Source: Aeromonas popoffii (lineage in GTDB: Bacteria > Pseudomonadota > Gammaproteobacteria > Enterobacterales > Aeromonadaceae). From it: a DNA stretch of 64,000 nucleotides. The stretch covers positions 147,523-211,522 of the forward strand of contig NZ_CDBI01000091.1 of NCBI RefSeq assembly GCF_000820025.1, read 5' to 3'. A program made the position numbers and the translations under genes. The notes below the pieces were generated by a model. The model was not told the origin of the DNA and did no database searches. It saw only the letters and a program-made list of their open reading frames with translations. Each line of letters begins with the position of its first letter. The stretch's first letter is position 1. Shown piece by piece: positions 20,761 to 22,695 of the stretch.

Positions 20761-21435
20761 TCAAACGGGCAAGGCAAAGTGGCGTTGCAGCAGGCCGTGG
20801 GTGAATCCTGTCTTGAGGTAAAAGCCCCGTGGCAGGGTCAGGATCGGCTGGCCATTGCGACCGATGGCGCGGGTCAGCGCCTTGTTGTTAGCGGCCTTTG
20901 GGCGCAGTTGCATCACCTGACCGTGGCGAGCGCTGATCTGCTCCACCTCTCCCAGCACTATCATGTCCATCAACTCCTCCCAGTCCTGGCGCAGCAGCCG
21001 ATCCTCCTCCTCATTAGGGCTCCACATCAGCGGCATGCCGACCCGGCGCTCGCCTATCGGGATATCGCGACTTCCCTCAACCGGGATCCAGAGCACCCGC
21101 GAGAGTTTGTTGCGCACGTTTGACTGCTCCCAGCGCTGGCCGCTGACGCCGATCAGCGGCGCCACGCAGACGAAGGTGGTCTCCAGGGGTTTGCCCTGAG
21201 GATCGATGGGGATCGTCTTGAGCTCTATGCCAAGTTCCGGGAAGTCCTGCTCTGGCTTGCTGCCGGCGCTGGCACCCAGTTGCCACTCGATCAGCTGGCC
21301 GACCCAGCCTTTGTCCCGTCTCAGATCCCGGGGGACGGCGAGGCCTGCATCGGCAGCCAGCTGTGCCAGTGTGAAGCCTGCCATGGCATGGGCTCGGCTC
21401 AATAACTCCTGCTCGGACTGGGGCTGGGTGGGCAT
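20761..21435 (-). CDS. mutH: DNA mismatch-repair endonuclease MutH
   Basis: Nicks the unmethylated strand at hemimethylated GATC sites on activation by MutS-MutL. The ATG at 21435 has AGGAG six bases upstream and gives 224 residues; an in-frame ATG 15 bases earlier is less likely. Catalytic residues of the restriction-endonuclease fold are visible in [16 protein letters not shown] (Asp, Glu, Lys). VCVAPL and the C-terminal [19 protein letters not shown] (quoted within limits) also match. It is divergent from rppH across a GATC-rich gap, the same arrangement as in E. coli. Confidence 0.96.
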
Positions 21436-21450
21436 GAATGACTCCTGCAA

Positions 21451-22167
21451 AGGGGATTATTCTAGCAAGTCTGCTCCTTGGTGAGGATCGCTGTTTTTAT
21501 AACCGATCCTGCCGAGGGGTTGCACTGGGGGGGGGATTTTGCACCTTATTACTTATCATAATGATTTTTAACGAATTTGTCTTTATTGTACCGATCTTTT
21601 CCACGCAGGATCCCGGCTTGGAATAGTTGTCCAAGGGTTTACTCATGCTGTTGCACACAGTTATCCACAGAAATCTTGGATAACTGGCTCAAAGTGGTGA
21701 TAGTGGGGGTGTTGTTACAAAAAAATGTGAAACGGCAGCGATTTTTGCTGCGATGGCAGGGCAGATAGTGTGCCACTCCTGTGGATAAATTAGCCGTGGT
21801 GGATCTTTGAGCAGATGAACTTGTTCACAATCAGGATCCCGGATCTTTGGCCGGGAAAGACATGGATCTTGATCCAGTGAAGTGCGCATAACACATTGTA
21901 TTCAAATGGATTTTTAGTTTTATAAACCATGCCGCATGCTGGTTCCTTGAGTAGAGCAGATAAAAAAAACTACTGTATATACCTGCTTGATCACAGGCTT
22001 ATGCACAGTCTGGGTGGGCAACTTGCGGGGTTTGATCCTTGGATTTGTTTATAAGTCGGCTTGAAATTGAAAGTTATTCATGAGTGGGGGATTGCAGTCC
22101 TTGTTTGCTGCCACGGGGTGAATGTGGAACAATCTCCTTATAGATTCAGCCTTTATAAGGTGATCAC
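21451..22167. promoter_or_regulatory. DARS2-like DnaA-box and GATC cluster between mutH and rppH
   Basis: This 717-base gap holds no gene. It has two perfect DnaA boxes: TTATCCACA at 21661-21669 and its complement at 21780-21788. TTATGCACA at 21999-22007 also fits the consensus. One-mismatch boxes are TTGTTCACA (21821-21829) and TTTTCCACG (21597-21605). Weaker ones are CTTGGATAA (21675-21683) and TTGATCACA (21987-21995). I count 12 GATC sites, where about three are expected, eight of them in 21593-21874. In E. coli the mutH-rppH (nudH) gap contains DARS2, which reactivates ADP-DnaA. Position and content together suggest the same function here. Confidence 0.7.
22136..22160 (+). other. Hairpin covering the rppH ribosome site
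   Basis: CCTTATA (22136-22142) pairs perfectly with TATAAGG (22154-22160) over an 11-base loop. The right arm contains the AAGG Shine-Dalgarno that serves the GTG at 22168, so folding would hide it. Whether this part is transcribed is not known. Confidence 0.45.
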
Positions 22168-22695
22168 GTGATAGATGGCGACGGGTTTCGTCCCAATGTC
22201 GGAATCGTGATCTGTAACCGTGACGGGCAAGTATTGTGGGCTAAGCGCTATGGGCAGCACTCCTGGCAGTTTCCGCAGGGGGGAGTTGATGACGGTGAGA
22301 CGCCTGAGCAGGCCATGTATCGTGAGCTGTATGAGGAGATAGGCCTCAAGCCCGAGGATGTGACCATCATGGCCACCAGTCGCAACTGGCTGAAGTACCG
22401 CTTACCCAAACGCCTTGTTCGTTGGGACAGTTCACCGGTCTGTATTGGCCAAAAACAAAAATGGTTCTTGCTACAACTGGATCCTGACAGGGAGTCCAGA
22501 ATCCAGTTCGGTTGTCATGGTCACCCCGAGTTTGATGATTGGCGTTGGGTCAGCTTCTGGTATCCGGTACGCCAGGTTGTCTCTTTCAAGCGAGAAGTCT
22601 ATCGACGGGTGATGAAAGAGTTTGCTCCGCTGGCGATGCCAGTGCTCGTGGTGCAAGTTAATCGGAAAGATGGGCGGCGCAACCGCTCTCGCTAA
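22168..22695 (+). CDS. rppH: RNA pyrophosphohydrolase RppH
   Basis: Removes pyrophosphate from mRNA 5' ends, which triggers RNase E decay. The 175-residue protein starts at a GTG giving [17 protein letters not shown], as in E. coli where the gene also starts with GTG. The Nudix box G-x5-E-x7-REUxEExGU is complete in the stretch from [17 protein letters not shown] to [15 protein letters not shown] and [14 protein letters not shown] are conserved. It is followed 13 bases later by ptsP, an arrangement conserved in enterobacteria. Confidence 0.96.

Follow-up and report, generated by a model that had tools for sequence, protein, structure and literature searches.

It is still debated how ATP-DnaA is raised at the right moment in E. 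coli and related bacteria; of the elements known to act in this, DARS2 is the main one. As described for E. coli, ADP-DnaA bound at the core loses its ADP, DARS2 needs both IHF and Fis, and Fis is displaced by ATP-DnaA at box V (PMC4245941, PMC8682772). The cores of DARS1 and DARS2 are reported to have a common spacing with box I reversed (PMC5742627), and an alignment of the core and the box V cluster of DARS2 in V. cholerae and S. denitrificans has already been published (PMC8682772).

The window, as the whole 64 kb stretch of DNA analysed here is called, derives from an Aeromonadaceae genome and contains a 717 bp gap bordered by two divergent genes, mutH (minus strand, 20761–21450) and rppH (plus strand, GTG start at 22168). 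A preliminary description had delimited this gap as gene-free between the two genes; its coordinates were correct, and NCBIfam supplied the names of both neighbours, as well as of ptsP beyond rppH. The frames after ptsP are presumably lgt and then thyA. The same description had equated the gap with the place of E. coli DARS2, a comparison that held for the neighbours, the core geometry, and box V. Because the mutH-rppH-ptsP neighbours, the core geometry, and box V are as in E. coli, the gap was read as the DARS2 counterpart of this genome (probability, about 0.8). The features of the element, with distances in the window, are as follows.

20761–21450, minus strand: mutH (NCBIfam NF003458)
21451–22167, no strand: mutH-rppH intergenic region, probable DARS2 counterpart by position, neighbours, box content, and triplets
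21554–21566, plus strand: mutH-side (left) unit, IHF-like site with 2 mismatches to TAANNNNTTGATW; left box II follows at 107 bp
21649–21657, plus strand: left triplet, box III, TGTTGCACA, 1 mismatch
21661–21669, plus strand: left triplet, box II, TTATCCACA, exact, invariant in seven congeneric loci
21675–21683, minus strand: left triplet, box I, reversed, TTATCCAAG, 2 mismatches
21780–21788, minus strand: exact TTATCCACA box at a distance of 119 bp to left box II; corresponds to the E. coli box taken as box V from its published description
21798–21812, plus strand: block TGGTnGATCTTT, common to E. coli and Vibrio-like gaps, putative positional counterpart of the Fis sites FBS2-3
21821–21829, plus strand: extra DnaA box, TTGTTCACA, 1 mismatch
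21889–21901, plus strand: right unit, IHF-like site with 2 mismatches; right box II follows at 110 bp; corresponds by position to E. coli IBS1
21987–21995, plus strand: box III of the right triplet, which corresponds to the E. coli DARS2 core; TTGATCACA, 2 mismatches
21999–22007, plus strand: right triplet, box II, TTATGCACA, exact
22013–22021, minus strand: right triplet, box I, reversed, TTGCCCACC, 3 mismatches
22046–22080, no strand: conserved pair TGTTTATAA ... GTTATTCA, 47 bp after right box II (46 bp in E. coli), resembling two half DnaA boxes
22168–22695, plus strand: rppH (NCBIfam NF001934)

Exact TTWTNCACA boxes occur in the gap at 21661 (+), 21780 (-), and 21999 (+), three of the six in the whole 64 kb window (window shuffles give 2.6). 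The two perfect boxes of the preliminary description are right if TTATCCACA alone is considered and become three once TTATGCACA is counted, while its near-perfect boxes in both orientations were recovered as 10 boxes with ≤1 mismatch (mean, 1.8 in 2000 first-order Markov sequences), the exact ones lying on both the plus and minus strands. GATC sites numbered 12, compared to 2.4 in the same Markov sequences, and the observed counts of exact boxes, near boxes, and GATC were each unreached by any of the 2000. The GATC excess of about four times claimed earlier stands against base composition, but shrinks to ~2.7-fold against the GATC-rich window, which holds 395 sites in 64 kb (sliding 717 bp windows of the same 64 kb: mean, 4.4; 0.35% of windows with ≥12).

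Two triplets of boxes in the same orientation, 338 bp apart, were identified in the gap at 21649–21683 (3 mismatches over three boxes) and 21987–22021 (5 mismatches), each with the spacing of DARS1 and DARS2 and a reversed box I. The best twin pair score in the gap was 8, compared to a mean of 26.2 for 40 dinucleotide shuffles. A full-consensus, reversed box beside the putative Fis cluster, as described for box V, occurs at 21780–21788, and the order of the boxes, previously said to differ from E. coli, does not: two strong boxes stand in the same order and orientation in both, at a spacing of 119 bp. The block TGGTnGATCTTT has 2 mismatches to the Fis consensus (PMC8682772; counted by eye), and the sole exact plus-strand match to that consensus in the gap is at 21759–21773. 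A plus-strand scan of 11 loci for the exact Fis consensus returned scattered matches with no clear pattern, thus only the aligned block is reported as a Fis candidate.

Within the genus, seven loci (the window and six congeners) were compared. Invariant positions made up 37% of the gap, 77% of the left triplet, and 54% of the right triplet, with all nine bases invariant in both box V and the 21821 box, and 14–31% invariant in the three spacers. Two blocks outside the triplets were as conserved as the left triplet, 22046–22082 (78%), which contains the TGTTTATAA...GTTATTCA pair common to E. coli, and 22105–22167 (73%), which adjoins rppH.

The occurrence of twin triplets was explored across the GTDB order. 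RppH was searched in 148 genomes and was present in 142, of which 130 provided loci (30 + 100 regions) that were combined with E. coli; among the 12 genomes left out, three have rppH ~340 bases or less from the contig start. The genes bordered a divergent mutH-rppH gap in 107 of 132 loci (one locus duplicates the window). A single rule, two triplets 220–380 bp apart, was applied to all 131 loci, and twin triplets were found in 82, one triplet in five, and none in 26, with <300 bp examinable in the remaining 18; two loci shortened at contig ends (L084 and L116) were counted among those without a twin pair. None of 565 mononucleotide shuffles passed the rule. The twin loci span 13 families and E. 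coli, and include every locus in f1 (10/10), f6, f10, f12, and f22 (9/9 each), f17 (6/6), f16 and f21 (5/5 each), f13 (4/4), and f5 and f11 (1/1 each), and a part of f9 (7/9) and f19 (6/8). Families without a twin pair were f2 (0/10; three single triplets), f7 (0/9; eight short gaps, one single triplet), f3 (0/9), f27 (0/5), f8 (0/4), f15 (0/2), and the one-locus families f4, f14, f18, f23 (a single triplet), f24, and f26. The preliminary description had advised aligning the gaps of relatives for box spacing, and the triplet geometry was indeed kept, with twins in 82 of 131 loci. Its argument from conservation in a distant family is supported to the extent that triplets recur across numerous families of the order, but conservation outside the Enterobacterales (V. 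cholerae, S. denitrificans) had been published before (PMC8682772), and GATC clustering is no general part of DARS2.

Sequence matches suggest that f22 is Vibrio-like, f6 Shewanella-like, and f9 Pasteurellaceae-like; f10 groups with Aliagarivorans (100% over 3522 bases) and f1/g2 is nearest to Zobellella. In f22 (Vibrionaceae-like) the right triplet is full and the left triplet is reduced to box II, with left boxes I and III gone, thus its nine twin loci hardly count for the left core. The left member was also poor in three f21/g35 loci and the f6/g29 locus, and left box I was mostly 3 mismatches from the consensus in E. coli and its f19 relatives. Among the f2/g3 loci (L014-L021, L024, and L026), 7 of 10 are without mutH beside rppH, three have one triplet, and seven have none, possibly a recent loss series.

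For a test of the left core anchored on a single box, 25 genera were used (E. coli counting as one), excluding gaps <450 bp and pair scores >16. The anchor was the best single plus-strand box 240–370 bp before the right core, around which 121 offsets were scanned. For plus-strand boxes other than the anchor, the lowest mean mismatch was at -12 (2.92 versus a background of 5.50, sd 0.60), and for minus-strand boxes at +14 (3.20 versus 5.48, sd 0.59); these offsets correspond to box III and box I in the geometry of a DARS core. The anchor missed the left core in f5, one f16 tie, and two f21 genera, misses that can only weaken the signal.

The best plus-strand match to the IHF consensus (PMC8682772) was determined 96–122 bp before box II, a range chosen after a first look at both cores and guided by the right core, and compared to 200 shuffles. 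The match was better than in any shuffle before both the right box II (1.92 versus 2.60, sd 0.12; 77 loci, 25 genera; 0/200 shuffles) and the left box II (2.01 versus 2.82, sd 0.13; 54 loci with upstream sequence long enough, 20 genera; 0/200 shuffles), and was weaker for the other 14 combinations of range and strand (lowest count, 8/200). The IHF-like sites of the window itself, with 2 mismatches each, would be too weak to be called individually, and among the congeners the left site shows no extra conservation (38% invariant compared to 37% for the gap; right site, 46%). Site distances cluster near 97, 108, and 120 bp (Rayleigh test for a 10.5 bp period: left, p = 0.0013; right, p = 0.0019), a periodicity that is suggestive only, as the genera are related and the distance range is narrow. 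In E. coli DARS2, where IBS1-2 lie between the core and the Fis sites, a pair of sites 3 bp apart, starting 99 bp before right box II, is what we take to be IBS1-2; the window has one site at the expected distance. Published IHF footprinting on the 455 bp E. coli DARS2 reported one protected region only.

The genome encodes SeqA, an IHF-alpha match over the cut-off, and HTH_8 in a frame of 104 aa, the size of which fits Fis. In the 4.76 Mb genome the canonical triplet with ≤3 mismatches occurs in three places (none for the reversed-pattern control): the left triplet of the gap, upstream of uvrB, and between ilvH and pta. The right triplet of the gap, with 5 mismatches, falls outside this list. 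The triplet upstream of uvrB (L258:1501-1535; G000:C13:26010-26044) has the same orientation to uvrB as E. coli DARS1 and is the putative DARS1 counterpart, although the UvrB frame at this place is a fragment at the locus end. The third triplet (3 mismatches; L260:1501-1535; G000:C105:21383-21417) is a possible further DARS-like or titration site. Among named genomes, the triplet pattern was found in at least 118 stretches; of the 118 listed, 12 adjoin rppH or mutH, and triplets and their neighbours were examined in 80. In beta- and other gammaproteobacteria (L140, L142, L148, and relatives), triplets occur beside priA (at least seven), xseA (at least six), and hemW (at least four) among 147 clustered neighbour frames, one member of each of these clusters being named by NCBIfam. 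DARS-like sites may, then, move between replication and repair genes. An Alcaligenaceae contig (L151:2477-3109) carries a series of three triplets separated by 303 and 295 bp, a spacing like that of the DARS2 twin cores.

From homology, we infer that the E. coli DARS2 mechanism operates in this genome. The core boxes would be bound by ADP-DnaA, with the head-to-head pair of boxes I and II loosening the grip on ADP; apo-DnaA would depart and take up ATP; and IHF bending together with Fis binding would place the exchange before initiation. DARS2 may further consist of two copies of one unit, an IHF-like site followed after ~95 bp by a DnaA core triplet. The rppH-side unit would be the known E. 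coli core, and the mutH-side triplet, the better conserved of the two in the genus, is most likely a second ADP-DnaA loading site, which would have its own IHF bend and either add exchange capacity or hold DnaA for the box V feedback. That DARS2 was ancestrally a tandem of IHF-DnaA-core units in the order that includes E. coli, Vibrio, Shewanella, Pasteurella, and Aeromonas, with the other half acting as a second exchange core or a counter-acting one, is a tentative proposal to which we give somewhat less than an even chance. Under this proposal, the role of the second half would have been overlooked because it is dispensable on a plasmid.

Published binding data bear on the mutH-side half. 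In Table 1 of Stringer et al. (PMC11317965), the mutH-side E. coli site is a DnaA ChIP-seq peak (213-fold) with its own double box, and the authors attribute both other DARS2 peaks (78- and 199-fold) to the double box of the core, though in our reading the 199-fold peak is nearer to box V by coordinate. By comparison, the same table gives 218 and 174 for oriC and 213 for datA. Although the table footnote names NC_000913.2, its coordinates agree with version.3 to within ~50 bp, and the sequence as printed leaves no ambiguity. On these values, the mutH-side half in E. coli would be bound by DnaA in vivo at least as strongly as the known core unit. On a plasmid, E. coli DARS2 retains its stimulation of initiation when the right half is missing, and boxes IV–VI are not needed there (PMC4245941), though the right half so described may not coincide exactly with the mutH-side unit. 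An element may be conserved and yet prove dispensable in multicopy, so the plasmid result is not decisive.

Alternatively, exchange may occur only at the rppH-side triplet, the mutH-side triplet being a high-affinity DnaA reservoir or a partner in the box V feedback with the geometry of any strong paired site, an explanation that we also give somewhat less than an even chance, if slightly more than the tandem proposal. It draws on the dispensability of the right half on the E. coli plasmid (PMC4245941), on the general preference of DnaA for paired boxes 2–3 bp apart (PMC11317965), and on the Vibrio-like loci without left boxes I and III that yet keep box II and box V. A simple paired site, however, has no need of a reversed box I, whose position at precisely +14, the best of 121 offsets, is separate evidence, while the IHF-like site is repeated at the same distance across genera. 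The arrangement as two IHF-core units is itself weakened by the 49 of 131 loci without a twin pair and by the right core of the window, of which box I is 3 and box III 2 mismatches off.

Explanations that make DARS secondary or absent are less probable. The DnaA boxes could control the transcription of mutH or rppH, tying repair or RNA decay to replication, in keeping with a left triplet ~200 bp upstream of mutH and with the region being listed as upstream of mutH by Stringer et al. (PMC11317965). Six of eight f9 (Pasteurellaceae-like) loci, with mutH absent from the stretch, nevertheless keep two triplets upstream of rppH, albeit with a weak box I in the right triplet, and E. coli DARS2 is active on plasmids according to the literature; transcriptional control is a very improbable account of the gap. 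That the left triplet exists to regulate mutH was set aside as unlikely in view of the loci without mutH. A separate SeqA- or MutH-related function of the GATC cluster, in place of DARS, is improbable to a slightly lesser degree. The gap of the window has 12 GATC, 10 Aeromonadaceae-like loci have 6–12, and SeqA is encoded, but E. coli has 2 and the means for f10 (1.3) and f6 (1.9) are low (raw counts, without control for length or composition), such that GATC is not tied to the box architecture. The cluster was also discarded as a hallmark of DARS2: in raw counts f1 averages 9.5 and the single f11 locus has 11, but the averages of the other families with twin loci run from 1.3 to 6.6, several families average only 1–3, and E. 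coli has 2. Within a DARS2 counterpart, the cluster (21486–22165) may be an added lineage-specific layer involving Dam and SeqA. The clustering of DnaA boxes with GATC could also be expected of an oriC or a datA-type locus, but with mutH, rppH, and ptsP as neighbours this has next to no likelihood. The preliminary description had advised locating the real oriC beside dnaA and mnmG, and dnaA (C62:41364-41843) and mnmG (C62:50302-52149) do lie together, ~8.5 kb apart, on contig C62, with the window on C91, such that oriC was rejected. No switch in GC skew was found in the 64 kb window, the skew being positive in 14 of 16 steps of 4 kb, with one step at 0.000 and one at -0.007.

If DARS2 does comprise two IHF-core units, a very strong DnaA site lies beyond the portion taken to be minimal, and a regulatory or titrating half may be overlooked in models of the cell cycle where DARS2 acts as a single catalyst. 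Its deep conservation provides natural test variants, including the reduced left unit of the Vibrio-like loci and lineages that lost the gap. The second core-like triplet on the mutH side is what appears to be new here, the conservation of DARS2 in gamma-proteobacteria being already known (PMC8682772). In the searched text of open-licence papers, no description was found of the second core or its IHF-like site, or of DARS2 in Aeromonas.

Compared to known systems, the V. cholerae and S. denitrificans DARS2 are the same kind of locus, for which the core and box V cluster have been compared, and the text of that comparison mentions neither a second triplet nor an IHF-like site preceding it (PMC8682772). 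E. coli DARS1, in the bioD-uvrB gap, shares the III-3-II-5-I triplet, but has one strong triplet (2 mismatches; the next best scores 6) and is reported not to need IHF or Fis in vitro (PMC5742627). For E. coli DARS2, the core was located via deletion primers (PMC4585315) and the listed double box (PMC11317965, Table 1). Its gap is 684 bp compared to 717 bp in the window, and it differs in the distance between triplets (316 bp compared to 338 bp), in GATC number (2 compared to 12), in the relative strength of the cores, the right core being weaker and the left core closer to the consensus in the window, and in having a small ORF, ygdT, annotated across its left half. The ygdT ORF (L001:3331-3477) overlaps the left core and box V, and its shared bases resemble DnaA sites rather than codons. 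The likenesses to E. coli DARS2 comprise the same neighbours (in MG1655, the gap separates mutH from rppH, ptsP, and lgt), two facing TTATCCACA boxes 119 bp apart within longer shared stretches, the III-3-II-5-I core order (spacers in bp) with box I reversed, the TGTTTATAA/GTTATTCA pair 46–47 bp after the core, and a conserved block beside box V.
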